A DNA stretch of 64,000 nucleotides, taken from NCBI RefSeq assembly GCF_964355755.1, contig NC_092671.1, positions 39,201,304 through 39,265,303 of the forward strand, written 5' to 3'. This stretch comes from Antedon mediterranea (Eukaryota > Echinodermata > Crinoidea > Comatulida > Antedonidae). Every line of letters starts with the position of its first letter. Position 1 is the first letter of the stretch. A program made the position numbers and the translations under genes. A model generated the notes under the pieces. That model worked only from the letters and a program-made list of their open reading frames with translations. It was not told where the DNA came from and did not search any database. Of the stretch, positions 2,660 through 38,136 are shown in pieces.

Positions 2660-4380
2660 TCACAAGGAAGAACATAGCTTGGAATTAAAATGTAGTTGGC
2701 ATCTACAAACAACATTGCCACCACACTTAGCTTCAAAATGTAGTAAATGTTCATTTTGTGAACTCTGCCAAACTGTAAAAACAACTTCATCTCCTTCTAA
2801 TGTTTCACCAAGATACTGAATAATAAATTCCTTCAACTTTGACCTTACAACATCCAGGGTGATTACTGTAAAGGTTTTTGCCGCTACAGCCTCTCGTGCT
2901 AAGTGAACACAAAATTTTAAATACGCTGTGTTATTTGTATGTTTATTAAGATCCACATCCTCTTCACAAATGATAAACTTTTTACAATAGCTCTTCACTC
3001 CCGAGGAATTATTGTTAAATTGTAACATTGGTGGGATATCTGGTTTGTTTGCAGATGCATAGAAGTATATATTCTTTATTGTATCTGGGAATGGTGTAGA
3101 TTTGCGTGTAGCTCGATTCACACACACCATCTGAACATGGCACTTGCTAAAGCAATCGTCTGACACCATTATTTTGGACTCAAAAAGCATTGAAGACTTG
3201 CCGCAATACAACACAGAGAACAACCCATGTGTTGGTTGCACTGATAGAATGCTTTTACTGTTTAATTTGTCATCTACATCCACTTTCAAATGTCTTACAA
3301 AGAGAGTGTGATTATTGAAAAACAGAGGGTGTTGCTCCTTCATCGTTAGTCTTAAGCCAATAGCTCGTATACACTGATGAGTAAACGCAATTTTCCATGG
3401 TAGAATATATCCTATAAAACAAATAGTAAAACGAAAATGGTAATAATGCTATAGCAGGCTTCCCTAGAAAGTCTTACCTTGGAATCCTGATTAAAACTGG
3501 TAATGCTAAATATCTTTTGTTTTAAAATGTCTAACATTACACCCAATTCTCTAACTAATAAAATATATATATCAACATTTATGAGTGTTGTTATTATATC
3601 ATGTCTTGGGTGAGAAGAGATACATGTTAGACAGTGTATGAATTGCACTATGTTTTAAAGCCCCATTCCCTACGTTTTTTAGATTTAATTTAAGATCACA
3701 AACTATATTTAATGTAAAAATAATACTATATGGTCCTATTGCGATAACTTTTTTCGTCTTTAAACGGTTAAAAATGTGAAAAATAAGTCGATTCTAATAA
3801 TTATAGCGGCCCGCTATAAATCCCAAAATGCATTGCGCGCGGATTGATATTTTTGTTTTTCACCTGTAATTCGCCCACTTTTCGATCGATCGTGAGGCCA
3901 AAACAAATGGAAGACTCCTAACTTTTCAGCGAAAATACCGGGTTTTCCCCAATTTGTATCAACGGAGTCTGGCAAAAATAGAAAGACAATTAATGCAGCA
4001 ACTATACAATGTCAGGCTAGGTATATAGGTAGCGTACGATGTTCGTACGTTACCGATGTTTAACAGCTAGGCCTACAAAACTAAGCCTAGCTAGGCTAGG
4101 CCTAAGACCGTCCACGAGAGGTCGATCGCCGCGAGCTACTTAGGTAGTGCATTGTTTCTCACTTTTTATCATAATTTACCATAAAACGTACATTTAAGAC
4201 AAGGAATGACATGGTTTAATGTTTTTAAAGTGATATATATGTATTATTTTCCAAAAAACGTCCAAAATTGCAGGGAAGGGGTCTTTAATACTAACCATGT
4301 TCATCAAATTCTTCTGCTGTATGTGTTCCAATATCAATTACAAATGTCTTGTTAGCAGGAGCTGAAGCTGGTGATGCCAT
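2660..4380 (-). CDS. Double-hotdog acyl-ACP/acyl-CoA thioesterase-like protein TE1
   Basis: Two exons, complement(join(2660..3411,4296..4380)), 278 residues. Exon 1 starts at MASPASAPANK and ends in phase 1 at a GT donor. Exon 2 starts after TTTTATAG, so the split codon gives Gly in EEFDEH-GYILPW. The N-terminal half resembles one hotdog domain. The C-terminal half carries EDVDLNKHTN (D182, N184, H186) and YLGETLEGDE (E231), which align with the D-x-N-x-H and downstream Glu of plant-type acyl-ACP thioesterases. By family knowledge it would hydrolyse an acyl thioester; substrate is unknown. It has no leader peptide, unlike TE3-TE6. An in-frame TAG seven codons upstream fixes the ATG if the first exon is not extended by splicing. 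Family membership is inferred from motifs only. Confidence 0.78.
3412..4295 (-). other. Intron 1 of TE1
   Basis: 884-bp phase-1 intron with GT-AG ends on the minus strand. It contains several AGGCCTA/TAGCCTAG words near 4070-4110 and no recognised transposon. Short ORFs here are chance. Confidence 0.7.
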
Positions 4381-5085
4381 AACCAATGCAGGTTGATGAC
4401 CCTATTTGCAACAAAAACAAGCCTGTGCTGTAGATTTAGATAATATATGCATGTATAGATATTACTGTATTAATTATTATTATTAATTTCAAACTCACAA
4501 GGATTTAGATACAAAAGTAGAGAAATAAATTATGTAGGCTGCAGCAGCTTTAGTCAGCTCGCATCACTGCGGGTTAGGTCAGTCACTGTTCTGCCCAAGA
4601 AGATGAATGGTGCTGGTATGGTTGGTAGGCTACAAATAATACAGTACAGTACATTAAAACCATGGAGGTAATAATGTTTTACCTCCATAGCAAACTGAAT
4701 GAACTCAACACTCGGTTATCCATACTAGACCTAAAACAACATGCAAATATTATATAATTCTAGCTAAATAACAAACCCAATTGTCTATCTCTGGCCTAGG
4801 CCTAATTATTTGTGCAGTACTTACTTACCCGTTACCGTTCCGAAAGATATATGAATTTCAGCAACATGTGCAGTAAAGCGTGAAAACGAAAACAAGAGCA
4901 CGCGATGGGAATACATAACAGTTATGCATGGTTTAATGAATATTCATTATTCATGCATGATGTAACAGTAATTCTATACTTCAAATGAATTTCAATACTT
5001 TCTTTAATATCTTTTTTTTTAACAATAAGTTTCAACAAATTATGAGTACATATTATAACATACTGTACATTTATTGGAAAATTAT

Positions 5086-5252
5086 ATTATAAATGTATAG
5101 GCTTTACTGATTGAATGTGATGTATATTTATATATTTAAATTATATTATAAATGTATAGGCTTCACTAATTGAATGTGATGTATATTTATATATTTAAAT
5201 TATATTATAAATGTATAGGTTTTACTGATCGAATGTGATGTATATTTATTTT
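5086..5252. repeat. About 59-bp tandem repeat, three copies
   Basis: Three adjoining copies of a unit with TATAGGCTTTACTGATTGAA and GTGATGTATATTTATATATT, starting near 5086, 5145 and 5204. It lies in the interval between TE1 and TE2, which otherwise shows only a LINE/SINE-like tail near 5300-5370 (AAATTTATAAAGCGCTTCAA). Confidence 0.75.
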
Positions 5253-5569
5253 TCCACACAAACTGAAGTCAGTCGAATTCTGATCAAAATAATAAAATAA
5301 TAATAAATTAAATTTATAAAGCGCTTCAATATGACAGAAACAAACTCTAAGCGCTGAAATATACAATGTCATACATTTTCCTTTAAAAAATACATCACAA
5401 GTATTATAAGAAATGATATTAAAAAACAAGTATGCAAACAGACATCATCTTGGTTCAATCTCTCTTAAAATATTAATTTTATTAGTACCGTAATTGTAGG
5501 AATGGTGCTTCCACTGTTTAAAAAAAAGTGTACATTTTTTTAAAACTTTAACAATGAAGAATATATTTA

Positions 5570-6737
5570 TTACAATGAAGACATTAATTTATTATCTAAA
5601 TGAAATTGAGATCTGATAACGATGCTGTCACTTTTCTTTGCCTCAAAATGAATCAGATATTTGTTTTGTGAATCTTGCCACATATCAAAACATATTTCAT
5701 CTCCTTTCACACTCTCACCAAGATACTGTATAGTATAATCTCTCAGTGGACTCTCTAAAAATTCTTGACATAGAATTCCATCAGTAATTGCACTGCTAAA
5801 AACAGTATCACATAATTTCATATATGCAGCATTGTTGGTATGCCCATTCGAATCAACATGCTCCTCTCTGATTATTATTTTTTTGTTATAAATAACCTGT
5901 CCTGTAGATTGTGGAGTTTCTAATAACGGTGAAAGTACGGGTCGTTTCCCATTAACAGCGTACGCATAAATATTCCTCACGGTTTCATCGAACGCAGCAG
6001 GTTTTCGAGTTTGTTTGTCGACGCCTATGCATTGAGCAGTACATGTACTGTAGCACTGTTGTTCATTCTCTAAAATAAGACGCGTGTTACATAACAATGA
6101 AGAGCTACCTAAATAAGTTACTGTAAAATCTGCATGGATGGGTTGAGAGGATAAAGCACTCGTGAGATTTGTATTCACATGTGCAGTTTGGTGTCGTATG
6201 TAAAGGGTTGAGTTTTTGAAAAAAACATCATGATGATTTGCCAGTGATGCTCGAAGTCCAGCTAAACGGGCATATTGGTGAAGAAGAGCCAGTCTGGATG
6301 GATGAATGTAACCTGAAATAGATTGAAAAAAAAAAGAACAATATTTTGGTCTTGAACTTTTAAAGTCATCAAACTCATCAAGTTTGGTGGTAGGCCAAAG
6401 AGGCAATCTAAAATGAGGGGGTTCAAATCCCATTAGAGATCAACTTGGGATTTTTTTTTCACATACTTACTGTACAGAGTACGGTATCTGACATACTAAT
6501 ATATGGGGCCACATTATGTGTGTAATTAATTATTGAAGTCCCTTGTATTGTAATCTAGGTCAATTTACTTAAAAATCAAAGCTTATTTGACCAGGCTCTG
6601 AAATGCATTTTACATGAATAATTTAAAGGAAAAAGTTGACATTCACTACCTCTTTTGTTAAAGTCCTCCTGTAGTAGTTTTCCAGGACCAATATTAACTT
6701 TAAAATTCTTCAATATGCTCATTCTTGTCGACGTCAT
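5570..6737 (-). CDS. Double-hotdog thioesterase-like protein TE2
   Basis: Two exons, complement(join(5570..6312,6650..6737)), 276 residues. Exon 1 encodes MTSTRMSILKNFKVNIG...DFNKR and ends in phase 1. Exon 2 begins with Gly at GYIHPSRLALLHQ after a TTTCAG acceptor. The second hotdog half has EHVDSNGHTNN (D183, N185, H187) and YLGESVKGDE (E229), so all catalytic positions of the acyl-ACP thioesterase type are present. The reading frame extends upstream in exon 1 to a TTG but no other ATG, so the start at 6737 is preferred. It shares intron position and phase with all other copies. Substrate unknown. Confidence 0.78.
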
Positions 6738-8462: not shown

Positions 8463-8594
8463 CATTCCAGGTCTTAATGAAGAGGAAACCGCTGAATCAA
8501 TTAATCAGCACTTTGAGGATGTCTGTTGCCAATTACCTGCTCTGGAACAAAACAACTTGCCTGCATATCTTCCATCCTTGCAGCCGCGATTGAT
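8463..8594 (+). mobile_element. LINE fragment, region before the reverse transcriptase domain
   Basis: Plus-strand translation gives an uninterrupted stretch including GLNEEETAESINQHFEDVCC and LPALEQNNLPAYLPSLQPRL. This matches the linker that precedes the reverse transcriptase core in jockey/CR1-like LINEs of marine invertebrates. It starts after a stop and ends without continuing into an RT core, so it is a short relic. Confidence 0.7.
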
Positions 8595-9650: not shown

Positions 9651-11387
9651 CTATTTAGTTCTAAATGCTAAGTATAATTCACTGCACAGCAGGACTGAGT
9701 GGAAATGATACAATTCTGCCACTGGAAACAGAACACTTTCGATGATGTTCCAGTTACGTTCACCAAAAAACCAGACGTTTGTTGGTGAGTCCACAAGAAC
9801 AGCATGAAGAGCGATAAACGTGTCTGTAGCCAAAATAAACGCATTACAAACAGCAAGATACAAGAAACAATCACAAAGACGGTAGGATACAACCGATGAA
9901 CGCAATGACGGCACTCGGCGACGCGCGGAAACAAAGAAGCATGTCTGCATTATAATCTGAACATAGTTTACGATGGAGTACGAAAAACAGAGAGCAGAAT
10001 CAGTTACTGTGGCGTTAAAAACAGTTTTGTTATCATTATCAACAATCCTGATTTCCGGTGACGAAGAATTAAGGTGGTGCAATAATGTCGCAGATGTAAT
10101 AGTCGTAAAAGTGGTGACAAGAAATGTAGCTGTGACGGTACTGAAGAGAAGTTTTTCGCTTCCATCCAAGGCTTGTCTTCTGTCGTACCGAAAATGTGAC
10201 AAATATCGGACCCCAAACATAACAGGAATGATTAACAGTACCTGATACACCAGTCTAAACGTGTGATAAATGTAAATGACAACAACATCGGTACTCTGAA
10301 GCATAAGCATAGCAGCAGATGTGATCAAAAGCAAGGAAACGAAGACAGAAAATAGCATAGGAAATGAGCAATGTCTTTCTTGGTGATGATGATCAGTGCG
10401 GCCAGAGTCTAGTTCGTCATTATTATAATGTTCACCATTAGTCGCGGATTTATTTTCACTTGGAACGAGGCTGAACCAATGATGAAGAAATATTCCAATG
10501 GAGAGAATGTAGAACTCAATAGCAAACGGGTAGCATATGTCTTGTATGACATACACACTTTTGTCAAACGACCGGTTGCTGTTATAACATCCTACATCGT
10601 AATCTCCTGACGTGTTCTTCTTCCAACCATCACGATTTTGCCACGGTTGTGTAACAGCAAGTCGTACTAAACCGATATAGACCAAACCCTCTAGTAAAGC
10701 AATGACATTAGCACTTACGAATAGCAAGAAAGAATAACAGAACCACGGACTGCTTTTAAACTTAATGTTTTTGAAATAAACGAAAAATACAATCTGACAG
10801 CAGAAAAAAATGTTACAAACGCCTCGAAAGACAAGATATAGGGTGTCTTCTTTTACGTATTTGTTTGTGTCATATTCGTTGACAAAAAATGGAATGCATG
10901 TACCAACTTGAACCATATCAATTGAAAACATGAATAAAGTCATACCGCCAAATATGTAAATGCCAATCAAAGAAGGACTTGACTTCTGGTGACTTTTCTT
11001 AAGTGATTCATGAAGAATGTCTGATGCATCGTGTTGATCATTGATGCAGTTCACACCTTCTGTATTCAATGGCACGATATACGACATCTCAATCCATCTT
11101 TGTTTTGATTTCAGGAATTGTAACAGGATTATAATAACAAATATTACAAACATAATCGTGAAGATTAATCTTACAGTCCAAAAGGAACGAGGTGACATTA
11201 TGCTTGTAAAAATCACAACTGATGCAAATGAAGCGAACCAAATGGAAAGGAGAAGAGATGCATAAAATCCGTCCTCTTTATCATCTTTTCCTCTTCGTCC
11301 GGTTCGAAGTAATTGGACCAGTACTTGCCCGAAAGAAATACTTTTGTGATTTTGTAAGTTCATCATCAGTGGAGAGTTGCCAGACAT
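9651..11387 (-). CDS. Otopetrin-like proton channel, copy A
   Basis: Single-exon ORF of 578 residues. About twelve hydrophobic segments are visible (roughly 41-63, 72-92, 139-165, 182-206, 214-236, 283-305, 342-363, 370-392, 411-434, 465-486, 502-525, 547-573), as in otopetrins. Diagnostic stretches are CYPFAIEFYILSIGIF near 285-300 and the C-terminal NWNIIESVLFPV...YHFHSVLLC, matching the W-II...P...Y-FHS signature of the family. Length is close to vertebrate OTOP proteins (about 600). Otopetrins form proton-selective channels; here substrate and gating are inference. A loop near 330-340 is His-rich (TDHHHQERH). Possible N-glycosylation sites fall in loops (NTS, NRS, NKT, NAT). It is a tandem duplicate of copy B. 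Confidence 0.82.
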   Translation of the reverse strand: MSGNSPLMMNLQNHKSISFGQVLVQLLRTGRRGKDDKEDGFYASLLLSIWFASFASVVIFTSIMSPRSFWTVRLIFTIMFVIFVIIILLQFLKSKQRWIEMSYIVPLNTEGVNCINDQHDASDILHESLKKSHQKSSPSLIGIYIFGGMTLFMFSIDMVQVGTCIPFFVNEYDTNKYVKEDTLYLVFRGVCNIFFCCQIVFFVYFKNIKFKSSPWFCYSFLLFVSANVIALLEGLVYIGLVRLAVTQPWQNRDGWKKNTSGDYDVGCYNSNRSFDKSVYVIQDICYPFAIEFYILSIGIFLHHWFSLVPSENKSATNGEHYNNDELDSGRTDHHHQERHCSFPMLFSVFVSLLLITSAAMLMLQSTDVVVIYIYHTFRLVYQVLLIIPVMFGVRYLSHFRYDRRQALDGSEKLLFSTVTATFLVTTFTTITSATLLHHLNSSSPEIRIVDNDNKTVFNATVTDSALCFSYSIVNYVQIIMQTCFFVSARRRVPSLRSSVVSYRLCDCFLYLAVCNAFILATDTFIALHAVLVDSPTNVWFFGERNWNIIESVLFPVAELYHFHSVLLCSELYLAFRTK

Positions 11388-12711
11388 GTTGTAGATAGTT
11401 TTTAACTAATCTTTAAATCTTTAGATTGTGATACAATATTCCTCTGTCTGATTAGTTAGGATAGTGACATATTTAGCTCAGTCTGAGTTATATTATGTTT
11501 ATTATTTATAATCGAAAGCAATAACATAATTATATAGCTTTCGTTTTCACAAATTAAATGATAATTTAAATAAATAATTAGGCCTTTAATAATATAATAA
11601 TTCATAATAAAGTTTCATAAACAACATAATTATTCGCTTCAAAGTGAGTTAGCATTTTTGTTTCTTCTTTCACTTATCCTTTGATACTTCTTCAAGGTTA
11701 AAGGTCACACACAAGTGGAGTTTGATAATTTGTGACATGCGCGGGAAGAAGACGAAGAATGTTTGTCATAAATGATAAAACCAAGAAAGAATATGCAAGT
11801 TAATTTTATTATTAATAGTCTAAAATGTTTTTATATTAATTTGTCATGAAGATCAATAAAACACAATCGGCATAGTTGAAAGGATCTGCAGGAAATACTC
11901 CACTAATTTAGAAACTAAAAACAAGCCACCTGCGGGGAGCTGTGGTTTCTATGCAAATTAGAGACATTTCTTTAAAAATAAATGATAAAGTTGTACGAAG
12001 CAATTCAAAATATTATTATCCTCGTGATCTTGACAAATAGTTCATTTTCTTTTTTGGAAAAACTATTAAAACGTATGTACACTTTACACGCCATTTCCAG
12101 GAGTAATTGAAACTTGAATTTATCATTCGAAACTCATTCATCATCAAATTAAACGAAATTACAGATTTAATCACAAACTTACTGCAGTTTCAGATATCTA
12201 ATAATTGAATCTACTTTTGCAAGAATCTTTTATTCGAATCTTTTATTCGAATCAACCAGGCGCGCAAGATAATTAGCATAATAATAACTTCTCTTGTATA
12301 ACATTAATATTATTTAACATATTTTCGTATGTTATGACCGTAAATATGAACTCTCTCTACTAAATCCTTTATTTGACATGGTGAATATTTATTATTCAAT
12401 AAATAATTTATTTATAATCATAGTTTCCGCTACATATATATATATACATTTCGCAAGCTTGTCCACCTACACGGAATAAGAAGTAAATTTCTTCATGTTG
12501 GGAAATTTAAAATTAAAAATTAAAATAAAGATTATCTTTGAGTGCACATGCATGATACATATCAGAAGTTACTTAACGCTACCTTATCTACTTATAACAA
12601 CTTAAGTGTATTAATGTGAAAGAATTGTACTTCTATAGAGTTGAAAATTATCATTTCTTTACAAACGCAGGCATAGCAATACTTATCCATAACACATTTG
12701 GTAGAAGTGAT
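11388..12711. other. Spacer between the otopetrin copies
   Basis: AT-rich spacer without recognised exon. It has a short direct duplication (CTTTTATTCGAAT twice near 12225-12252) and a TA-rich run near 12435. The stretch 12010-12190 resembles 7440-7610, downstream of copy A's 3' side (shared words such as TTCATTTTTTTTT...ACAAAACTATTAAAACGT), which suggests that the duplicated otopetrin unit includes flanking DNA. Confidence 0.45.
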
Positions 12712-15739: not shown

Positions 15740-16740
15740 TCAAATTGCTTTAGGATTTGAATTGAAATCTAGTTGACATCTAAAAACAACATTTTCCTGT
15801 TTCTTTGCCTCAAAATTAAGAAGATGATCCTGTTTTAAATCTTGCCACATTGTATAATGTAATTCATCTCCTTTCAATGTTTCGCCAAAGAATTGAGCAA
15901 TATAACCTCGTAACTGACCCTTTAGAATATCTGGTGTAACATATGTGAGTTTTTTATCAGTGCTGCTCCTAAAATATGATTGAGCAACGTCGATACAAAA
16001 CTTGATATATGATGATTCATTCGTGTGCTTTTCACTATCCACATCTTCATTGCCAACGATTACTTTGTTGTTGTAGATCTCATCTGAAAATCCTGGAGTT
16101 CCAGAAAGAGCAGTGAAATGAGGTTTTTGCGCATGTGCAGCATATGAATATCTATCTGTCAACACCTTTGGTATTGGGCACGGTCGTCTGCTTTCAACAT
16201 TAACACATATAATTTGTGTATTAGATGTACTAATACACTTTTGCTGTTTTTCCAATATCAGCTCACTACGGCAAACAATCGAAGATGTCCCAATATACGT
16301 AATGCTATACGTACCGTGTATAGGTTCTGATATCATATCGCTGGTGATATTATCGTCGACAAATCCTTGTTGATAACGCACAAAGTAGGATTCTTTCTTC
16401 CTTGACAAATAGAACTTTCTATTTGAATTTTTGAGAACTTCTTCGTGAAGTTTTGCATGTCTTGACGGACGGACATAACCTGCAATACGAAATTATAAAT
16501 ATAATTTGTATATTCGGAAAGTATTTAAAGTAGAACTACTTCCCTTAATCCATTTGATCATGAGATAGGATTCCAGAATTAGACACCGACAAAGAACAAC
16601 AACTAAACGTTCCTACCTGCTTCATTGAAGTCCTCCTTTCTCAGGTTTTTACCGCCAATATCAACTCTAGTGTTGTTTGTCGATGCCATTCTTGTTAACA
16701 TATCTAAGCCAACTCGTTTCAGCTGTACCCTTTGGAGCAT
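15740..16740 (-). CDS. Double-hotdog thioesterase-like protein TE3, catalytic Asn replaced
   Basis: Two exons, complement(join(15740..16479,16617..16740)), 287 residues. Exon 1 encodes MLQRVQLKRVGLDMLTRMAS...DFNEA; exon 2 opens with Gly at GYVRPSRHAKLHEE after TATTGCAG. The leader is basic, lacks acidic residues up to D13 and looks like a mitochondrial presequence. A second in-frame start (MASTNN) would give a leaderless form. The second hotdog reads EDVDSEKHTN: D189 and H193 are kept, but the usual Asn is E191. The downstream Glu is present (FFGETLKGDE, E241). The change may alter or abolish hydrolysis; this is inference. TE5 is its counterpart in the duplicated block. Confidence 0.77.
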
Positions 16741-16866
16741 TGCTGTTATTGTAAGAATTTTGGATGATGAAAGATGAAGTTCAGTGTTGGTTCAAAGAGT
16801 TTCGTCTATAAACTTGGAAGTATAGATCGTTTGTTTGTTTTGCTTTATTTTCAAACTATGTGTGTT

Positions 16867-17679: not shown

Positions 17680-18188
17680 TAAAATAAATTATTACTAAAT
17701 TAATTAAAAACCAGAAAATTGTCTATTCTCAAGAACATCCTCTACAATCACAATCTATCCAAAATATTAGTAAGTTCACTCAGACTGAGAGAAACAAACT
17801 CACAAAAATACATCGTGTACTGACCTATGAATACCAGACCAAATTACTAGATTGAAAAATCTAGTAAGAAGTTATAACATCACGTCTCTTAATCTTCTTC
17901 GCATAATCAGTAAAGTTATGACAAAGTGATTCGTCTTTTTATTATTATCACAAATATGGTCGCCGTATTTTACTTATTGGTATTTATTCAAATTCAACAT
18001 ATTAAACTAAAAAATAGCAGCAAAAATGCCGAATTGAGATCTAATTTACATGAGGTAAAAACATCAAAAGGTAAAAAATAAATAAACAAAAGACATATAT
18101 ATCTGGTCTGATGAGGTTTACTATAGGAGGATATAATAGTTCACATACAACACAATTATAGAAATATAATTCAAATTGTTTCAGGATT

Positions 18189-19774
18189 TTAATTGAAATC
18201 TAGTTGACCTCTAAAAACAACATTGTTCTGTTTCTTTGCCTCGAAATTAAGAAGATGATCTTGTTTTAAATCTTGCCACATTGTATAATGTAATTCATCT
18301 CCTCTCTGTGTTTCGCCAAAATATTGAGCAATATAACCTCGTAACTGACCATTTAAAATATATGGTGTAACATATGTGAGTATTTTATCAGTGTTAGGCC
18401 TACTCCTAAAATATGATTGGGCAACGTCGATGCAAAACTTGAAATATGACGCTTGATTCATGTGTTTGTTCACGTCCACATCGTCATCGCCAACGATTAC
18501 CTTTTTGCTGTAGATCTCATCTGAAGATTTTAGAGTTTCAGATAGATCCGGGAAATTAGGCTTTTGTGCATGCGCAGCATATGAATGCGCATCTGTGAAC
18601 AATTTTGGTACTGGGCACGGTCGTCTGCTCTCAAGATTAACACATATAACTTGCACAATACATGTACTAATACACTTTTGCTGTTTTTCCAATATCAGCT
18701 TACTATGGCAAACAATCGAAGATGTCCCAATATACGTAATGCTATACGTACCGTATATAGGTTCTGATATCATATCACTGGTGATATTCTCGTCGACGAA
18801 TCCTTGCTGGTGACGCACAAAGTAAGATTCTTTCTTCGTAGACGAATAGTAGTCCTCTGGCAATGCTGATTGCGAACCGCAAATACGAACCTTTTCGTGA
18901 AGTAGTGCATGCCTTGACGGACGGATAAAACCTACAGATAAATAACTTAATAATGAACGACTTAATTCTGAAAGTGTTCATTAGGTAAAAGTATAATTTA
19001 AAGGTTGACTTAAAGCTCTTTCTACACTACCAAACTAGTTTAACAAAAAAAGTGTGATGTGCCCAAATATGGGGGTGATATGCCCAAATATGGTGGAGAT
19101 ATGACATTATCATGTATATATGGGCAGATCACATTTGTTTGTCAAATACAGTTTAATAGTGTAGGCAGAGCTCAACAAACCATATGAAAAAAATAATTTT
19201 GGCTATCATTCTAAATAATAATAATATATGAATAACTACGGTACCGATCGCAAAGTCATGGGTTCAAATCCTCCCATTGTTTTTTCTTGTTAGAACAACT
19301 CCATCCAAAATAATTGTAATAAAACTTTGTTTATAGCATAATGAGCATGATGTTTGTCTTTGACCCCATACGCAAACCAGCAGTAGACAATAATACAGCC
19401 ATTGCTTTTGAATTGAGCAATTTATGAATACACTCTATTGCTATTTAATACAATGAAAAATACATATGAACAATATCATAATGCGGGTAGGGTATTCTTT
19501 ATTATTAAAATATGCCTTCTCTTTTAAACGATATTTTAAATCACAACTCAGAAGACACTGAATTTAATGAATATAAATGAAGCAACTTAAAAAAGGGGCG
19601 GGGAAAAGAAAACAACGAAACGTTCCTACCTGCTTCATTGAAGTCCTCCTTTCCCAGTTTTTTACCGCCAATATCAACTTTAGTGCTGTTTGTCGATGCC
19701 ATTCTTGTTAACATATCTATTAAGCCAACTCGCTTCAGCTGTACCCTTTGAAGCATTGCTGTTATTTTAAACAT
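18189..19774 (-). CDS. Double-hotdog thioesterase-like protein TE4
   Basis: Two exons, complement(join(18189..18931,19630..19774)), 295 residues. Exon 1 starts MFKITAMLQRVQLKRVGLID, a basic leader likely to be mitochondrial; inner ATGs (MLQRV, MLTR, MASTNS) are possible alternative starts. Exon 2 opens with Gly at GFIRPSRHALLHEK after TCTGTAG. The active-site motif DDVDVNKHMN (D201, N203, H205) and YFGETQRGDE are intact. The C-terminus stops at LDFN through a TAA where TE3, TE5 and TE6 read SNPKAI or SIPKTI, so a few residues are lost. It pairs with TE6 in the duplicated block. Confidence 0.77.
19012..19173. mobile_element. Palindromic MITE copy (CTCTGTCTACACTATCAAAC family)
   Basis: Ends are AAGCTCTTTCTACACTACC and AATAGTGTAGGCAGAGCT, inverted relative to each other. 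The inside contains TGTGATGTGCCCAAATATGG and its rough complement ATATATGGGCAGATCACA, so the whole element can fold. It lies in the TE4 intron. Confidence 0.75.
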
Positions 19775-20568: not shown

Positions 20569-20915
20569 TCATAGGTTAGAGGTTAGATAATGTAGTTTGA
20601 ACCGACATCTGAAAACATGAACCCCATCTTTCTTTGCTTCAAAGTGGAAAAGATGTTTATTTAGAAAATCTTGCAACATTGTATAACTGATCTCATCACC
20701 TTCGAGAGTTTCACCAATATACTCGCACGTAAACTTTGTTTGTGTTGCCAAATGCCGCATCATTAACGCTACTTTTAGCAACTACAGAACTTAACATAAA
20801 CAGTTGCATTCATATGTCCAATCATATCAACATGTTCTTTACCAACAACCATTGTTTTCTCGTACATTTTCTGATCTTTAGATTTCATAATTTCTAACTA
20901 TTCGATCTTTGGTTT
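20569..20915 (-). pseudogene. Decayed thioesterase-like gene, 3' part of exon 2
   Basis: This is the copy-A counterpart of TE7. The last 50 or so codons (CEYIGETLEGDEISYTM...HYLTSNL) are nearly identical to TE7, and the 3' flank from about 20161 matches 32821 onward. Upstream a deletion in the VYVKFC region shifts the frame, and the active-site motif reads EHVDMIGHMN, with the Asn changed to Ile. Homology stops near 20915, inside the first hotdog half. The rest of exon 2 is missing. A relic of exon 1 lies 5 kb further upstream at 25997-26071. Confidence 0.85.
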
Positions 20916-21590
20916 GTAAAAATGAAATTTAATTAGATATTTTTTATAACAAAGTTTTACCAATATTTTGCCTATAATATAGTCATTTAACATTACAATA
21001 TCAAAAGAGAAACGCAATTTGGTACGGAATTACATAAATTTAAAAAGAAACACTCAACATTTGAGGTAAAATGTTACACTGGTCCAACCCAGGACAAAAC
21101 TGCAATTTTTTCCTGTCAAAGTTTTCTCAATAATATTTTCCACTCGGAATTTATATCAAAAATACCATAGTCTTTTGAGCCACGCTTCTTTTTTTACAAA
21201 TCCAAGATGGCATCCAAAAAAAAAATGTTCTTTCCCAACTTTTTAAAGTGGATATGTCATCTTCAGCAACAATGTATCTTTTAATTTAGAATGTAAGTTC
21301 AAATCCAAGATGTCCTTCAAAATCCAAGATGACCTTCCAAATCCAAGATGGCCACTAACATTATAAATGGCTGTTAAATTGACTTTTAACATTTAATTTT
21401 GCCTATTAAATAGCCTTTCTAAACAATTTAGATGGTTATGTCATCCTTAGGCATGTATCTTAAAATTAGCATGAGACTCAAAAATCCAAAATGGCTACCA
21501 AATTTCAAATGGCCACCATATTCATGAATTGTATGGGGTAAGAAGCAACTAACATTCTTAATAAAGGTATCTATTTCTAGTTTTATCGAA
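20916..21590. other. Non-coding DNA with AATCCAAGATGGCC-type short repeats
   Basis: Repeated variants of AATCCAAGATGGC occur near 21200, 21305, 21325, 21343 and 21484. The same word class recurs near 26520 and 26695. No exon is recognised. It marks the start of the material that replaced the middle of the decayed thioesterase gene. Confidence 0.5.
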
Positions 21591-24960: not shown

Positions 24961-25996
24961 TAATATTTTATAAATAATTTAATTTAATAAAAAATTATGT
25001 GTAATTAAATTATGCACATTTTTAATAGCTTTCTTATTAAACATTTTCAATTTTGTGTTGTCTATTTTCGAGAAATCTTTAAAAATACAGAGGCCTCACT
25101 AGAAATTCTGACTTCTCAATATAGTGTTATAATTTGTCAATAGTAATACTAGTATGTTCTATGTTTTTTTCAGTAGATAGCATATTTTATGAGCTTTAAT
25201 TTGATACGATACAGTTTTTCCATTTACATTTTAAAGAATTTTTTTATATTTTAAAACATTCTTTGGGGTCAAAGGTCAGTAAAAGAATGTCCGGTCATTT
25301 TATGGCTAAAAGTTGTGTTAGAGCAAATGTAAATATGTATATTCTGAACAATTGAACACCAAAAACAAATCTCTATGACAAGTGGTTGTCAATATATTAT
25401 AACCACACATCTTTAACATTTGACCCCGATTTTAGCCATTTTCTTCAAATTAACCTATAACAGTTGAGATATTCTCTTCTAAATTAATTGCATACATATC
25501 TTATTCAGGTCCTTGACTAAGAAGAAAATTATATTTTGTTTCACAAAAAAAGTGTTAAAAATACAGTTTTTACTGCAAAAAATACTTTAATCACATGTAA
25601 ATGTGATATATTTGATATCATTGGGTAGATAATTGAAGTAGCTACCATGTGGTACCAAACATGATAGTACTAATAGTAGATAATATATACATCTTAGTTT
25701 ATATCGTTAAATATTGATTATTTCCAATTTTAGACATATTTGATCTCAAATGACCTCCAAAATATAAGTTCCACTAAACCGATTTTAGTAGATTTTGAAA
25801 ATAAAACACTCCAATAACTACAGAATCAGAAAAAAAAGTTTTGAAACTATTGCATTTTGTTTTGGGTCAATTCACAGATTGCCTGAACTATAAGTAGGCT
25901 ATCAGTAGTGAGAACTCGGTATCAGCACACCTTAAATTGGCTAGGTGTGGTTTATTACCTATAGTTTCACAATTAAAAATACCAAAAGAAACTTAC
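24961..25996. other. AT-rich DNA without recognised features
   Basis: No coding exon, known repeat boundary or RNA gene is seen. It continues the block that separates the two pieces of the decayed thioesterase gene. Confidence 0.45.
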
Positions 25997-26071
25997 CACT
26001 TTAATTGAAATCCTGCGAAGAAAGTTGTCCGTTATATTGTATTGAAAACTGTCTTTTTTTTGTCAAAATGC
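25997..26071 (-). pseudogene. Relic of thioesterase exon 1
   Basis: The reverse complement ends in CTTTCTTCGCAGGATTTCAA followed by TTAAAGTG and a GTAAGT donor. TE7 exon 1 has CTTTCATCGCAGGATTTCAA at the same place. Here the frame contains a stop (AAT TAA) and the ATG is lost. Together with 20569-20915 it shows that one TE7-like gene was split by deletion of the first half of exon 2 and insertion of repeats. Confidence 0.8.
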
Positions 26072-27764: not shown

Positions 27765-28410
27765 AATAAGGCAACAGAAGAGCAGTGTTTAATTTGCGGG
27801 GGGAGTGAATTCCAGAGTGTGGGTGCTGCAAAAGAAAACGATCTATGACCAAAGGTTTAGCTATGCGTGGAACAGAGAATAAGAAATCATCAGATGATCT
27901 AAGAGTCCGTCCAGGAACATAAAAGGTGATTTTATTGACGGATGTAAGCAGGTTGGTTAAAAAGTGCTTTAAAAGTAAGGAGCAAGATTTTAAATTTGAT
28001 TCGATTGTCAATGGGGAGCCAGCGAAGAACAGGTGAAACGTGAATAATAATAATAATAATAATAAGATTTTTATAGCGCACATACCACTCCAGAGTGCTC
28101 AAGGCGCATTTAAAAATAAAAAAGAAATAAATCATACAAATTCCTGACAAATAAAATGCAATTTTAAAAAGCGACGGTTAGTTAACGTAATGATACGAGC
28201 AGCCGAGTTCTGTATTCGTTGAAGACGATTAATTTGAAAATTCGAAAGGGCATAGAACAGAAAATTGCAATAATCAAGACGAGAGAAGATAAAACCATGA
28301 ATGATAGATGATGTGGAGCGTATAGAAAGAAAGCGTCCAACAATTGCGCATACTGCCAAATATTTAAATGCCACATTATTACACAGTAAAATCTTTATTC
28401 TTTTGTACAC
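27706..28410 (-). mobile_element. LINE reverse transcriptase 3' fragment with an insertion
   Basis: From 28410 downward the minus strand encodes IIHGFIFSRLDYCNFLFYAL and LQRIQNSAARIITL, then WLPIDNRIKFKILLLTFKAL near 28010, then VPGRTLRSSDDFLFSVPRIA near 27900. These are consecutive C-terminal parts of a jockey/CR1-like LINE RT. The frame is broken, and about 28043-28160 is an inserted AATAATAAT...TTTTATAGCGCAC repeat tail. It faces the plus-strand fragment tail to tail. Confidence 0.85.
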
Positions 28411-29294
28411 AAATTTTGTAAATAGAGAGGAATTTTAAAAAGCTATAAAAAATAAACGGTGTGGTAAAAAATGTTATCAGATGACTAAATATAGGTAATA
28501 TAACTTGAATATTACATTTCTGATATTTTTATTCAACTTTAGATTTTTATTTTCATGCTATAGCAAAAATTATCCACCGTATATCCACCATCTTTTTTCA
28601 ACTTCTAGGGAGTCACCAGACATGTTATTGCATTAGGTTAACTACCTAACTACTGAAAAAAAGTCTTCTTGGTTTTTATAGAAGAATTTTGCCAAATTTT
28701 GTATTTGACCATATTAAGGGAAATTCATATACAAATATTTTATTTATGTACAATTAACCAAATATTATATTTAAATTCATGCCTGTACCTAAGCTTTAAA
28801 TAAAGTGTTTATAAAAAAGGAAAAAAAAGTGTTGTTTAATCAGTGTTTTCATAGTAGACGTGACCCAAAAAGATAACAAACTTATAATATATATATGCGT
28901 TGGTCATACTATAGGCTTTTTATATGGAGAATTGAAATTATTAGGTTATTTTGGAAGTTCAATATCGTCAACAACTTTAGGTTACTAATCAACCTTATAT
29001 AATAACATCTTTTGCCAAGTTTGATAACCTGCTATCAACAACACTGTCCCCTAGAGGCTGTGATTGGTCAATACTCGCAGTAGTAACCTGGTAGGCGCGG
29101 CGCGCTGAACATCCGGTGATTCGGACCGAAGAAGACGAATTAATATTTATTCGGCCTAACTGTGTAAATAACTTATCATTGCGAACCAAGAGAACACCTT
29201 TGAAAACCATACCCAGTTAAACATTACTTTTTCAGATAATAGGCCTACATGCAGCAACATCGTAATAGAGGAGACTAAACAATAGGCCTATTAT

Positions 29295-30356
29295 TCAAAT
29301 TGCTTTAGGATTTGAATTGAAATCTAGTTGACCTCTAAAAACAACATTTTCCTGTTTCTTTGCCTCGAAATTAAGAAGATGATCCTGTTTTAAATCTTGC
29401 CACATTGTATAATGTAATTCATCTCCTTTCAGTGTTTCGTCAAAGTATTGAGCAATATAACCTCGTAACTGACCATTTAAAATATCTGGTGTAACATATG
29501 TGAGTATTTTATCAGTGTTGCTCGTAAAATGTGATTGGGCAACGTCGATACAAAACTTGATATATGATGATTCATTCGTGTGTTTATCTCCATCCACATA
29601 TTCTTCACCAACGATTACTTTGTTGTTGTAGATCTCATCTGAAGATCCTGGAGTTTTAGAAAGAGCAGTGAAATGAGGTTTTTGCGCATGTGCAGCATAT
29701 GGATATCTATCTGTCAATTCTTTTGGTATTGGGCACGGTCGTCTGTTTTCAACATTAACACATATAATTTGTGTATTAGATGTACTAATACACTTTTGCT
29801 GTTTTTCCAATATGAGATTACTACGGAAAAACATTGAAGATGTCCCAATATACGTAACGCTATACGTACCGTATATAGGTTCTGATATCATATCGCTGGT
29901 GATATTATCGTCGACAAATCCTTGCTGGTGACGTACAAAGTAGCATTCTTTCTTCCTAGACAAATAGAAGTTTCTATTTGAATTTTTAAGAACTTCTTCG
30001 TGAAGTTGTGCATGTCTTGACGGACGGACATAACCTGCAATATACAATTATAAATATTATTTGTTAGTCTAATTAAGAGAGTATTATTTAATTATTTTAG
30101 TACTAATCGATATGATAATGAACACAAGTTTAGGATTTTTTAAAAATCTATTCGTTCATGGGATAGAAAACATTAATTATACGTTTACAAAATACAACAA
30201 CTAAACGTTCCTACCTGCTTCATTGAAGTCCACCTTTCTCAGTTTTTTACCGGAAATATCAACTTTAGTACTGTTTGTCGATGCCATTCTTGTTAACATA
30301 TTTATGCCAACTCGTTTCAGCTGTACCCTTTGAAGTATTGGTGTTATGGTAAACAT
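29295..30356 (-). CDS. Double-hotdog thioesterase-like protein TE5, catalytic Asn replaced
   Basis: Two exons, complement(join(29295..30034,30215..30356)), 293 residues. Exon 1 starts MFTITPILQRVQLKRVG; the ATG used by TE3 (MLQRV) is ATA here, but the upstream in-frame ATG shared with TE4 and TE6 is present. Exon 2 opens with Gly at GYVRPSRHAQLHEE. The active-site motif reads EYVDGDKHTN: D195 and H199 are kept, and the usual Asn is D197. The Glu motif is YFDETLKGDE. It corresponds to TE3 in copy A. The coding exon differs clearly more between TE3 and TE5 than their 3' flanks do. The leader is basic and probably mitochondrial (inference). Confidence 0.77.
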
Positions 30357-30972
30357 TTCGGATGATGAAAGATGAAGAGCAGTGTTGGTTCTTAGGTTGA
30401 TTGAAGACTGACTGACGGTAAAGGATTTTTTTAAAACTTTTAATTAAGTCAGTGAAAAGGACAAACTCTTAAATATTTACTACTTATAATTATCTTTATT
30501 ACTTATGTTCAACCCGCGTTTATACAGTACCACATTGTAAAGTTGTTATATTATACTGGTTAGCTTCTTTAACCATCTGAAGAATACCTTAGATTTAGTT
30601 TAAAAGCTTTTCTTAACGTATGTATTAAAATCAAACAAATTACTGATTTGTCTGCTGCTTTTACAGCTTGTGTTTAGATATTTAAATGAAAACTTCTACG
30701 TGTTATTTTCTGATTTCATTAACGTAAGTGATATGACCAATCACAAGCGATAAAATATTCAAACTGTCGCTTGTCATTGGTCAACTTACTTGCGTTGAGT
30801 CTATGTTCTTGCGTTGCGTCTCTAGTGTGAACCGAGCATTAAGGAATGATATCCATTCTACGTTCAGAGTGAGGTACATAACTTATCACGACATCCTTTC
30901 TAAGTCTAATGACGTTTACATATAGCGATAAATAATAGTTCTATTGTTGATAATTATATATAATGGAAATAT
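30357..30972. other. Spacer between TE5 and TE6
   Basis: No gene. At about 30730-30842 there is a stretch rich in ACTTGCGTTG-type words ending GTGTGAACCGAGCATTAA. It resembles the ends of a DNA-transposon MITE, similar in style to 46356-46565. Confidence 0.4.
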
Positions 30973-32537
30973 TCAAATTGTTTTAGGAATTGAATTGAAA
31001 TCTAGTTGACATCTAAAAACAACATTTTCCTGTTTCTTTGCCTCGAAATTAAGAAGATAATCTTGTTTAAAATCTTGCCACATTGTATAATGTAATTCAT
31101 CTCCTTTCAGTGTTTCGCTAAAGTATTGAGCAATATATCCTCGGAACTGACCATTTAAAATATCTGATGTAACATATGTGAGTATTTTATCAGTGTTACT
31201 CGTAAAATATGATTGGGCAACGTCGATGCAAAACTTGATATATGCTGCTTCATTCATGTGTTTGTTCACGTCCACATCGTCATTGCCAACGATTATCTTT
31301 TTGCTGTAGATCTCATCTGAAGATTTTGGAGTTTCAGATAGATCCGGGAAATTAGGCTTTTGCGCATGCGCAGCATATGAATGCGCATCTGTGAATAATG
31401 TTGGTATTGGGCAAGGTCGTCTGCTCTCAAGATTAACACATATAACTTGCGCAATACATGTACTAATACACTGTTTTTCTAATATTAGCTTACTACGGCA
31501 AACAATCGACGATGTCCCAATATACGAAACGCTATACGTACCGTGTATAGGTTCTGATATCATAGCGCTGGTGACATTCTCGTCAACGAATCCTTGCTGG
31601 TGACGCACAAAGTAGGATTCTTTCTTTGTAGACGAATAGTAGTCCTCTGGCAATGCTGATTGCAAACCGCAAATACGAACTTTTTCGTGAAGTAGTGCAT
31701 GTCTTGAAGGACGGATAAAACCTACAGATAAATAACTTAATAATGAACGACTTAATTCGGAAAGTGTTCATTAAGTAAGTATAATGTAAGGTCAACTTAA
31801 CAAACCATGCTGATATGAAAACAATAATTTTGGCTGTCATTTTGAATATTAATATATAAATAACTAGCGATCGCAAGGTCATGAGTTCAAATACTCTTAT
31901 TAGTTTTTTTTTTCTCATATCAGAAACATGCAGCGCGAAGGCTGAAAATGTTTATTTACAAAAATATATATATGGAAATACAAATATTTAAAAAATACAA
32001 AATGTATACAAAACATTAAACCAACCACAACACTACAATACAGCCATTCTTATTTTGAATTGAGCAATTTATGAGTAAATTATATTGCTTAATACAATGA
32101 AACTCATAATATTACAAGGATAGGTTCTGTGTGCTACAGTATATTAACAATACTGGTAGGATATTCATTATTGTCAAAATATTCCTTATTTTTTAAGGAT
32201 AGGACTCAGAAGACACTTAAAGTGAATTTAATGAATATAAATGAAGCAACTTAAAAGGGGCGGGGAAAGAAGAATATAATTATCTCTCACACTATAGTAC
32301 AATGTGTATACATAGAAACTGATCTGAATCCGTTTGATCACGGTATAGATCACGGTATAGAAAGTTCGGATTACAACACAACTATAGGTTCCTACCTGCT
32401 TCATTGAAGTCCTCCTTTCTCAGGTTTTTACAGCCGATATCAACTTTAGTGCTGTTTGTCGATGCCATTCTTGTTAACATACCTAAGCCAGCTCGTTTCA
32501 GCTGTACCCTTTGAAGCATTGCTGTTATGGTAAACAT
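30973..32537 (-). CDS. Double-hotdog thioesterase-like protein TE6
   Basis: Two exons, complement(join(30973..31721,32396..32537)), 296 residues. Exon 1 starts MFTITAMLQRVQLKRAGLGM, a basic leader; the frame runs further upstream only to a TTG, so the ATG at 32537 is used. Exon 2 opens with Gly at the GFIRPSRHALLHEK-like sequence after TCTGTAG. The active-site motif is DDVDVNKHMN (D198, N200, H202), and the Glu motif is YFSETLKGDE. Compared with TE4 it lacks two residues in the EKQ-CIS stretch and keeps the SIPKTI C-terminus that TE4 has lost. It is expected to be catalytically competent. Confidence 0.78.
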
Positions 32538-33228
32538 TTTGTTTTGAGCATGCGTAGTAGTGGCTGTTCTGGTTCTCAATAGTCAAGAGTACTAGGCCTA
32601 CCTATTGAAAATGAATACAACAATTAAGTGTTTTTAAGATAATGGTTTAATATTTATAAAAAGTTATAATCGCTCAATCATTTTTCAGGATGTTGTTGAA
32701 TAGCAATATTAAATATAAAAGTGACGTTTCACCAGCTTTCGTCAAACCGCCTACCGCATTAGTCCCCGAATTCATCCTCTCGTCTATCGGCGAGTCATTT
32801 TTCAAAGCAAATTCCAAAAATATATTAATATTTTCTCTTTATTCAAGCAATTTTTGTTTATAAAGGAAGGTGAAAATCTCTGGCATAAAATTCGAAAAGT
32901 GCAGGATAATTTAAAGACTTTTCTTCTTGTACATTATGACATGGTATAATGGTAATGGTTAATTGTTTGGTGTTTTAGCTTTGACAATACACGTGGTGAC
33001 TGAATATACGTACATGACAAACAAACAAACCTACTTTGTATTAAATTTAATATAAACAAAAGAACAAAACATATATTATAATTACATATGTGCATTAAAC
33101 GACTTGTAAAAAATAGTTAAATAAATTTATCATAACAAATATGTGGGTAACGCTACTGGATCGTCGAAATATTATATACCGTGCATAGATATGATCCCAA
33201 GCTTTAGTTTAGGACTACAGTGAATATA

Positions 33229-34759
33229 TCATAGGTTAGAGGTTAGATAATGTAGTTTGAACCGACATCTGAAAACAGGAACTCCATCTTTCTTTGCTTC
33301 AAAGTGGAAAAGATATTTATTTAGAAAATCTTGCCACATTGTATAACTGATCTCATCACCTTCGAGAGTTTCACCAATATACTCGCACGTAAGCTTTGTT
33401 AATTTACATTCTAACAGCTCGTGAGTAATGTTGCCAAATATTTTATCATTAATGCTGTTTTTAGCAACTAAAACACAAAACTGCATGTAAACAGCTGCAT
33501 TCATATGTCCGTTCAAGTCAACATCTTCTTTACCAACAACCATTGTTTTCTCGTAGATTCTTTTATCTTTAGATTGCAAAGTTTCTAACTGTTCGATCTT
33601 GGGTTTGATTCTTAGAACAGACTCGTACATTTGTACCAGTTTTTCTGGCAATGGGGTGGGTCTTCTCGTTTCAAGATTAACACAAACCCCTTGTTGGATC
33701 ATGGTACTAATACACTTTTTCTGGTTTTTCAAAATCACTTCAGACTTGCACAAAATTGAGGTTCTACCGACATGTGTCACAGTAAACACACCACATACTG
33801 GTTCAGATACCATGTCTGTTGTGATGTTGACATCTATAGATAATTGTCCATGGCGTAAAAAGAATCTGTTCAACTTGGCAATAGAGTCGGCATCTTCCTC
33901 TAACGATAACTCGAGACCAGTATTTCTGATCTGTTCATGGAAGACCAGGTGACGAGATGGATGAACGAAACCTAAACCAAGAATATGAAAATAATTTTAC
34001 AGTTTACTGTACTGTTAGGCCTACATCTTTACCATAACTTGAAAGAAAAATGAACTGTTCGAAGTAAGGAAACCTAGCCTGGTGGACACAGGTGTTATCC
34101 ACATCCGTATTGTTTCCTGATACTTCTTCCGTTCAGCTTGGAATTTACTATTTTATTCAATACTTTTAAAAATTACTGAACTTTGACGATGCATTTCTCT
34201 TGGTTGCCTTTCTCGTTTTGATTTGTTTGTATACACTTTATTTCCACAATTCCTATTTTTTTTACAAATTACAGTACTCAGTTGGTTTTTTTTGTCTGAG
34301 ATTCTTTTTTTTTTTTTCAATATTTAAAAAAAGAAATTACACTACATACGTGTTTGGCACTAACCCAGATACAGTATATTACGGTAATTATTATATTATA
34401 TGAACAACTGATTGATACGAAGGCATGCGACAAATCAATACGCATGGTGTCATTTCGTAATATTATTCATCGTAACACAATTTCTACCGCGACAGATGTT
34501 ATGGTAGGCGGCCGGTTCGACAATATACTTAGACTAGTCTTAGTAGACCTCTACTACTGCAAGCTAACTAGCAAGTATAGAGTGGTAACGTAACGCGTTT
34601 CGTACGGATGCATGTTTCCTATGTTATTAACTTAGAGTAGGCCTACAATAGGCGTACAGGTACTATGATTAGACAAAGCTTACCACTTTTATTGAAATCC
34701 TGCGATGAAAGACGTCCACAATCCTCAATGTTTAAAATGAAAACGTTTTTGGACGCCAT
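33229..34759 (-). CDS. Double-hotdog thioesterase-like protein TE7
   Basis: Two exons, complement(join(33229..33971,34684..34759)), 272 residues. Exon 1 encodes MASKNVFILNIEDCGRLSSQ-DFNKS and ends in phase 1 before GTAAGC. Exon 2 opens with Gly at GFVHPSRHLVFHEQ after TTGGTTTAG. It has no presequence; it begins at the position of the inner MAS of TE3-TE6. Active-site residues are D177, N179, H181 (EDVDLNGHMN) and E226 (CEYIGETLEGDE), all as expected for acyl-ACP-thioesterase-like hotdogs. TE7 and TE8 are close tandem duplicates with shared flanks. Confidence 0.8.
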
Positions 34760-35824: not shown

Positions 35825-37310
35825 TCATAGGTTAGAGGTTAGATAATGTAGTTTGAACCGACATCTGAAAACAGGAACCCCATCTTTCTTTGCTTCAAAG
35901 TGGAAAAGATATTTATTTTGTGAATCTTGGCACATTGTATAACTGACGTCATCACCTTCAAGGGTTTCACCAATATACTCGCACGTAAGCTTTGTTAATT
36001 TACATTCTAACAGCTCGTGAGTAATGTTGCCAAATATTTTATCATTAATGCTGTTTTTAGCAACTAAAACACAAAACTTAACGTAAACAGCTGCATTGAT
36101 ATGTCCGTTCAAGTCAACATCTTCTTTACCAACAACCATGGTTTTCTCGTAGATTTTTTGATCTTTAGATTGCAAAGTTTCTAACTCTTCGATCTTTGGT
36201 TTGGTTCCTAGGGCATCTACAGGAGGTGCATACATTTTTACGAGTTTGTCTGGTAATGGAGTAGGCCTTCTCGTTTCAAGACTCACACAAACCCCTTTTG
36301 CAATCATCGTACTAAAACACTTTCGCTGGTTTTTCAAAATCAGTTGAGACATGCATACAAATGAGGTTCTACCGACATATGTAACAGTAAACACACCACA
36401 TAATTGTTGTGATGGTGATACCATGTCTGTTGTGATATTGACATCTATAGATAATTGTCCATGGCGTAAAAAGAATCTGTTCAACTTGATAACAGAGTCG
36501 GCATCTTTCTCTAATGATAAAACCAGACCAGAATGTCTGATCTGCTCATGGAAGACCAGGTGACGAGATGGATGAACGAAACCTAAATCAAGAATATGAA
36601 ATTTACAGTTTGGTACATCTTTAACATAACTTGATTCTCAGAAAATACGAACTTTTTTCATCTAGCCTGGTGAACACATAGGCCTATGCGTATTGACTAT
36701 TGTTTCCCGACTTGCATAAATTCTTCTTCTAAATACTTAAAAAAATTACTGAACTTTGACGATGCATTTCTCTTGGTACTTTCTTGTTTTGATTTTTGTT
36801 TGTATACCGGGCCTACAGTAGGCTACACTAATTCCACAATAAGTTATTTTTTTTTACAAATCACAGATTAGGCCTAGGAGGCCTACTACATTATTTTCCC
36901 TTTTCTACTAATAATAGTATTATTAACAAAGGCATATGTGCCAGTAATTAAAGGCAAGCGACAAATCAATACGTATGCCATGGTGTCATTTTGTAATATT
37001 AATATTCATCGCAAACAAACTTTCGACCGCGACCGATTCTATGATAGGCGGTCGATTCGACAATAGGATCACTATATATCTACTTAGACTAGTCTTTTTA
37101 GTAGGCCTCTACTGCAAGCTACTAGCAGGTATAGAGTGTAAACGTGTTTCGTACGGAAGCAAGCATGTTACATGTTTCCTTACGTTAGTAACTCATAGTA
37201 GGCCTACAGGTACTTATGATTAGACCAAGCTTACCACTTTTATTGAAATCCTGTGATGAAAGTCGTCCACAATCCGCAATGTTTAAAATGAAAACGTTTT
37301 TCGACGCCAT
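35825..37310 (-). CDS. Double-hotdog thioesterase-like protein TE8
   Basis: Two exons, complement(join(35825..36582,37235..37310)), 277 residues. Exon 1 encodes MASKNVFILNIADCGRLSSQ-DFNKS. Exon 2 opens with the same GFVHPSRHLVFHEQ stretch as TE7. The active-site motif EDVDLNGHIN (D182, N184, H186) and YIGETLEGDD are intact. Two short insertions relative to TE7 (MVSPSQQLCG and APPVDALGTKP) account for the extra five residues. Upstream DNA around 36960-37230 is similar to 34440-34680 upstream of TE7, so promoter regions were copied with the gene. Confidence 0.8.
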
Positions 37311-38057
37311 GATTCGATTAATATGACCCGTGGGGTCATGGTCATTCGTTGAAACGTGAGAATTGTAATGGTCGAATGATTTATTTTACCAATTATCAAA
37401 CTTTTCACGTTGTACCGCACCCCTTTTAAACAAAATTCAAGCGATAGAATACCATGATGTAACATTCTTTCAGTATTAAATCTCTCTCTCTCAAACTTAT
37501 TTAGTCATCCTTCCAAAAAAATCATTTTTAACAATTTTATTTTCATTTTTTTTGTCACGGAAGTTGATATTAATTGTTATGTTATTTGTGTTTATCTTTT
37601 TTAGAAGCGTAACAGTTAAGTTAATTTACAAATTAATGATCATAGATTGTACTTAATTTTTATGAAATAAAATTCATTGATTGTAGAAATTGAGTCCCAC
37701 AAATCGGCAACTTTTTACATGCAATAATAAACAAACTTTTACACAGATTGCGTTCTGACGACCGATAATAATCTTTCTATATATGCACCATGTGCAACTC
37801 AACAAATGTTTTGTTAAATGAAGTTAATCAAAATAAATGTATGTAAAAAGAAAATATTATTAGTATATCCTCTCCCCTGGTAGGCCTATACACACGTGAG
37901 ACAAATTGTTACTGTAAAGATCATTCAAATTTTTAATAAGCAAATGAAAATTAATAAGACGGTAAAAACTGAATCCCAAATAAGATGTAGGCCTAATATT
38001 ACATTAAGAACAAGCCGTTGTACTCTAGGTACATTTATTTAAGAATTGTAGTTTATA

Positions 38058-38136
38058 GGCAAGAGACGGAATGGAAATTGAGCCGACATCTGAAAACAAG
38101 AACGCCATTTTTCCTTGCTTAAAAGTGGAACTTTTG
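38058..38136 (-). pseudogene. Short relic of a third TE7/TE8-type gene
   Basis: GAGCCGACATCTGAAAACA at about 38080 aligns with the 3' coding end of TE7 and TE8 (GAACCGACATCTGAAAACA), and the match runs on to about 38136. An in-frame stop falls in it (CTTGCTTAAAAGTGGAA versus TTTGCTTCAAAGTGGAA). The 3' flank of the unit is also present at 37498-37612. The rest of the gene is gone. Confidence 0.7.

Follow-up and report, generated by a model that had tools for sequence, protein, structure and literature searches.

A tandem family of candidate acyl-ACP-type thioesterase genes in the crinoid Antedon mediterranea

In the fatty acid synthesis of plants and bacteria, chain length is set by acyl-acyl carrier protein (acyl-ACP) thioesterases of the double-hotdog fold. 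Here we describe eight tandemly arranged genes of the crinoid Antedon mediterranea that probably encode proteins of this kind; they lie in a stretch of 64,000 nt (contig NC_092671.1, positions 39,201,304 to 39,265,303), which we call the window. The hotdog survey by Dillon and Bateman (2004; PMC516016) placed the Fat subfamily of these enzymes in plants, Firmicutes and Bacteroidetes only, with no members in Metazoa, and the members covered by the study of thioesterase family TE14 were of plant, algal and bacterial origin (PMC3176148). Our literature searches on animal acyl-ACP thioesterases and on crinoid thioesterases retrieved no animal case. An earlier note on this DNA held that large families of this type are not known from animals, which agrees with the 2004 survey and with these literature searches; our own genome search covered the A. 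mediterranea genome. Among the plant enzymes, FatA and FatB of sunflower have the catalytic residues D-x-N-x-H and a later Glu, which in HaFatA are D270, N272, H274 and E308 (PMC6232763), a tetrad against which the crinoid proteins can be compared.

Array layout and gene models

The genome comprises 354 Mb, 99.7% of it in 11 large contigs, and the array is located on the contig labelled C2. A search for COX1 had no match, and a mitochondrial contig therefore seems to be absent from the assembly. Six-frame translation of the window yielded eight intact two-exon genes, T1 to T8, all on the minus strand and spanning 2660-37310 (coordinates without a contig label are window positions). Exon 1 is short, ends in the motif D/E-F-N/D-x-x-G in all eight genes and sits 137-884 bases upstream of the exon-2 frame. 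Every gene has GT-AG splice sites in phase 1 within the Gly codon, giving proteins of 272-278 amino acids (aa) with a single terminal stop each. The spliced proteins can be aligned end to end with pairwise identities of 34-89%, and therefore the pattern is not due to chance. For the common exon design, homology alone is a sufficient explanation, because it would result from the copying of one ancestral two-exon gene. The gene models are:

2660..4380, minus strand: T1, exon 1 4296-4380, exon 2 2660-3411; 278 aa; most divergent of the copies, with the full tetrad D-N-H-E
5570..6737, minus strand: T2, exon 1 6650-6737, exon 2 5570-6312; 276 aa; tetrad complete
15740..16701, minus strand: T3, exon 1 16617-16701, exon 2 15740-16479; 274 aa; Glu in place of the catalytic Asn (DSEKH)
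18189..19714, minus strand: T4, exon 1 19630-19714, exon 2 18189-18931; 275 aa; C-terminus shorter than in its sisters; tetrad complete
29295..30299, minus strand: T5, exon 1 30215-30299, exon 2 29295-30034; 274 aa; Asp in place of the catalytic Asn (DGDKH)
30973..32480, minus strand: T6, exon 1 32396-32480, exon 2 30973-31721; 277 aa; tetrad complete
33229..34759, minus strand: T7, exon 1 34684-34759, exon 2 33229-33971; 272 aa; tetrad D177, N179, H181, E226
35825..37310, minus strand: T8, exon 1 37235-37310, exon 2 35825-36582; 277 aa; tetrad complete

Downstream acceptor sites in T3-T6, which would give proteins of 232-236 aa without the first helix, were ruled out by comparison with T1, T2, T7 and T8. 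Eight intact genes on one strand with a fixed exon design had already been recognized in the earlier note, but the intact array ends at 37310 and not at 38136 as given there, and it is interrupted between T2 and T3 by two intronless otopetrin genes (9651-14487). These two otopetrin-like genes, at 9651-11405 and 12712-14487 on the minus strand, closely resemble each other and have open frames of 584 and 591 aa.

Fold, active site and class of the array proteins

The Pfam profile 4HBT_2 (PF13279) scored above its gathering threshold in T1, T2, T4, T6, T7 and T8 and below it in T3 and T5; it matched both halves of the proteins and scored higher than the Fat models. Acyl-ACP_TE_C (PF20791) exceeded its cut-off in T4, T6, T7, T8 and spliced T1, but a gene of this genome with a single hotdog passed it too. 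When a profile of all eight proteins was compared with the PDB, the first match was the acyl-ACP thioesterase 2ess (E 5e-4), and a profile of the C-terminal half built from three copies only matched 2ess with an E-value of 1.7e-5. The alignment with 2ess runs through D-x-N-x-H and the later Glu. AlphaFold (AF2) models led by T7 and by T1, with predicted local distance difference test (pLDDT) values of 76 and 84, respectively, were both double hotdogs; since they share most of their alignment rows, the two models are not fully independent. The best structural match of the T7 model was 2own (Z 23.0), and the T1 model matched 2own with Z 25.9 (root-mean-square deviation 2.4, 247 aligned residues) and the FatB structure 5x04 with Z 23.0, compared with Z 21.0 for LnmK, 20.1 for mouse ACOT7 and 18.0 for human ACOT12. 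For both models, the top ranks were occupied exclusively by bacterial and plant acyl-ACP thioesterases, with about 240 residues aligned. A viral structure library contained nothing matching at E 0.001 or better. The double-hotdog, thioesterase-like nature proposed in the earlier note is thus supported by 4HBT_2 in six of the eight copies, by the profile match to 2ess and by two AlphaFold models; two of the checks it had suggested, a hotdog profile search with the spliced proteins and structure prediction, were performed and gave significant matches and a double hotdog.

The HaFatA residues D270, N272, H274 and E308 correspond to D177, N179, H181 and E226 of T7. A motif D-x-N-x-H...E had been ascribed to all intact genes; the complete tetrad is present in T1, T2, T4, T6, T7 and T8, and Asp, His and the later Glu are found in all eight, but the Asn is absent from T3 (DSEKH) and T5 (DGDKH). 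Judged from this substitution, T3 and T5 are probably altered or weak enzymes.

We consider it likely that T1-T8 are soluble thioester hydrolases with a double hotdog and form a crinoid family of the acyl-ACP-thioesterase type, represented by FatA/FatB and the bacterial enzymes. From fold and residues, they are predicted to look and, probably, to work like acyl-ACP thioesterases. The N-terminal hotdog would hold an acyl or ketoacyl chain, and the tetrad in the C-terminal hotdog (Asp, Asn, His, Glu) would activate water or a nucleophile, so that the thioester to the phosphopantetheine arm of an acyl carrier protein (ACP) or of coenzyme A (CoA) could be cut. Candidate sources of such chains are cytosolic fatty acid synthase (FAS) or polyketide synthase (PKS), mitochondrial ACP and CoA. 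Catalysis itself, the carrier, the substrate (acyl-ACP, polyketide or acyl-CoA) and a division of labour among the copies are what we infer.

Several observations weigh against this assignment. No copy scored above the cut-off with the N-terminal Fat domain PF01643 (best E 0.16, T5), which also had no match in the genome. The cut-off of PF20791 was passed by a single-hotdog gene as well, and therefore family scores are weak discriminators. Identity to solved acyl-ACP thioesterases is only about 10-18%, LnmK, a double-hotdog acyltransferase/decarboxylase, reaches the Z noted above on the T1 model, and two of the eight copies have lost the catalytic Asn. Since PF01643 was unmatched and PF20791 scores are not confined to the array proteins, we do not claim strict Fat/TE14 membership.

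With the bacterial acyl-ACP thioesterases of Lactobacillus plantarum (2own), Bacteroides thetaiotaomicron (2ess) and Spirosoma (4gak), which belong to family TE14 of the ThYme database, the array proteins share the double hotdog over about 240 residues (Z 21.6-25.9) and a similar length, whereas sequence identity is 12-18% and a match to PF01643 is lacking; moreover, the array genes are eukaryotic, share a conserved intron and form a set of eight paralogues. Plant FatA/FatB resemble the array proteins in fold (Z 20-23) and in the catalytic tetrad D-N-H-E, but His and Glu are 45 residues apart in T7 and 34 in HaFatA, and the array lies in an animal and lacks a plastid targeting context. LnmK from leinamycin biosynthesis matches over the full length of the fold (Z about 19-21), but shares about 10% identity, catalyzes another reaction and ranked below the listed acyl-ACP thioesterases.

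The alternative that we regard as unlikely, yet as the most serious one, is that T1-T8 are acyl-CoA thioesterases whose double hotdog was built independently from a 4HBT_2/THEM6-like single-hotdog gene. The 4HBT_2 profile fits both halves of the array proteins as it fits single-hotdog proteins (YbgC/FadM, THEM6-like), which have one hotdog instead of two, and it beats the Fat models; a single-hotdog 4HBT_2 gene is present on the same chromosome (C2:35337407-35337823), 3.9 Mb from the array. However, the solved animal acyl-CoA double hotdogs ACOT7 and ACOT12, which likewise carry two hotdogs per chain and share the general fold, fit less well (Z 20.1 and 18.0 on the T1 model against 23.0-25.9 for the best acyl-ACP thioesterases; overall 16-20 against 20-26), and in the alignment of the array proteins with the acyl-ACP thioesterase 2ess, the second-site Glu residues coincide.

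Duplication, decay and selection

Whole-genome searches with T7 and T1 (354 Mb) gave matches confined to the window, although weak copies may escape such searches. In a pairwise DNA comparison, the block 14838-20916 on the minus strand, containing T3, T4 and a pseudogene, corresponds to approximately 28376-33607 with T5, T6 and T7. In the 2 kb surrounding T3/T5, identity is 92%; near T4/T6 it is 90%, and between the pseudogene and T7 it is 84%. T1 and T2 share 34-42% identity with one another and with the other copies, and their synonymous changes are saturated; by their sequences, they are old single copies. Two broken elements accompany the intact genes:

20572..20918, minus strand: pseudogene; covers the C-terminal part of a T7-like exon 2 (T7 residues 147-272) and contains a TAG and a frameshift
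25989..26030, minus strand: exon-1 relic of the T7/T8 type, with an in-frame TAA near 26012; 88% identity over 42 bases

The earlier note had listed a split copy and a relic as separate entities. Both pieces are indeed broken and T7/T8-like, but they fit one broken gene without its middle and may represent such a gene. A unit of about 750 bases is tandemly repeated at 22400-24400 (minus strand), between the two pseudogene pieces, and this repeat may have broken the gene.

The substitution pattern shows the recent copies to be under purifying selection: three recent pairs have fewer amino-acid changes than expected under neutrality (binomial p 0.033, 0.013 and 0.0004), and omega is 0.39-0.60 among close copies. 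It is nevertheless conceivable, with a slightly lower probability than an acyl-CoA function, that the family is partly decaying, with T3, T5 and perhaps further copies as pseudoenzymes in a drifting array. The loss of Asn from T3 and T5, the pseudogene within the array and omega values of 0.46-0.60 among T3-T6 would fit such a drift, but all eight frames are open, splice sites and D/H/E are retained, and the deficit of amino-acid changes is seen in each recent pair.

In the T3/T4 and T5/T6 pairs, divergence is highest in the initial portion of the N-terminal hotdog, where 0.45-0.48 of sites differ, compared with 0.18 in the C-terminal hotdog. In FatB, 17 of 22 specificity residues are located in the N-terminal hotdog (PMC11043601), and chain specificity can differ between close Fat paralogues (PMC3176148). 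Because the copies differ most where the FatB specificity residues reside, and given this precedent among Fat paralogues, divergent substrate ranges are plausible by analogy; the copies made by tandem and block duplication diverge in their N-terminal halves, and we read this divergence as differing chain specificities. Around residues 44-60, a block of the N-terminal hotdog is replaced in T3/T5 relative to T4/T6, with an in-frame length difference. This replacement is perhaps a pocket change or the result of gene conversion.

Carriers and the polyketide release question

That all copies, or at least T3-T6, are mitochondrial acyl-ACP hydrolases whose target is type II mitochondrial fatty acid synthesis appears rather improbable to us. 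Upstream of the first modelled Met, four genes have extensions that are possible mitochondrial presequences:

16702-16790, minus strand: N-terminal extension of T3
19715-19810, minus strand: N-terminal extension of T4
30300-30440, minus strand: N-terminal extension of T5
32481-32580, minus strand: N-terminal extension of T6

These extensions are in frame and basic (MLQRVQLKR...MLTRMAST, net charge +4 over the first 25 residues), and they differ between copies by an in-frame indel of 3 bases. Their helical moment is moderate (0.33-0.39), however, the start codon is putative, and an extension of this kind is missing from T1, T7 and T8.

An equally improbable function of T1-T8 is the release or editing of ACP-bound polyketide chains in pigment or defence chemistry, for which they would act in trans with crinoid PKSs devoid of a thioesterase (TE) domain. 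The idea is attractive because echinoderm PKSs are reported to lack a TE domain (PMC11414698) and because two PKS genes of this TE-less kind are present in the genome. They are located on C4 at 27.561-27.568 Mb and 27.606-27.613 Mb, about 45 kb apart, are 62% identical and each encode KS-AT-DH-MT-ER-KR in an uninterrupted frame of 6.9 kb. One of them is followed by an ACP exon, and the next 1.9 kb showed no TE; no ACP exon was found within 2 kb past the end of the other. Both contain GIGLMD in the ketosynthase (KS) and hence the GLMD motif that is reported from 17 of 18 crinoid genomes, where other echinoderms have GMMD (PMC11414698). Hydrolysis of 3-ketoacyl-ACP, as performed by some bacterial family members (PMC3176148), would also fit such a function. 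On the other hand, the crinoid CrPKS reportedly needs no added thioesterase to give its aromatic product in vitro (PMC11414698). KS and TE domains were found on C1, C4, C5, C8 and C11, but none near the array on C2, and the PKS genes on C4 are unlinked to it. Other KS loci of the genome have TE domains of their own close by. The acyl or polyketide chain release function that the earlier note had considered plausible therefore gains no support from linkage to a PKS or FAS. Slightly less probable again is the more specific scenario that crinoids evolved stand-alone, paralogous acyl-ACP-type thioesterases to offload their own TE-less PKSs, as an animal counterpart of the FatA/FatB logic.

Several KS loci have a TE domain nearby (C1:4.19-4.21 and 30.46-30.66 Mb, C5:29.77 Mb, C11:9.52 Mb), which suggests an expanded set of FAS or FAS-like PKS genes; animal FAS-like PKSs (AFPKs) have been reported from molluscs and arthropods only (PMC10764717).

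With respect to origin, an old transfer from bacteria could still underlie the family, but no relative was detected at useful significance when 84,980 prokaryote genomes were scanned twice and viral contigs once with degenerate patterns and plasmids were searched by tblastn, methods that reach fairly close relatives only.

Beyond the array, the window contains exons of a SKICH-domain coiled-coil gene (TAX1BP1/CALCOCO-like) at about 48103-49878 on the minus strand and, at 52289-54823 and 56613-58955 on the same strand, two related long open frames, the first with RING, B-box, filamin and NHL domains (TRIM type) and the second similar by eye. A tandem repeat with a 35-base unit in about 17 copies occupies 42261-42868. 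In three crinoids, precursors of L-type SALMFamides are reported to contain the peptide GLRFHKGAPF-NH2 (PMC9793003); GLRFHKGAPF has exactly one match in the 354 Mb genome, where it is followed by G-KR (Gly-Lys-Arg). Together with the GLMD motif of the ketosynthases, this match identifies the host as a crinoid with high confidence.

For most TE-less enzymes of molluscs, the mode of product release was stated to be unknown (PMC10764717). With a crinoid tandem family of candidate stand-alone thioesterases, the question of release from TE-less PKSs becomes testable by expression and assay. If crinoids indeed offload their PKSs in this way, a free-standing thioesterase would set chain length in an animal, as is the case with FatA/FatB in plants.

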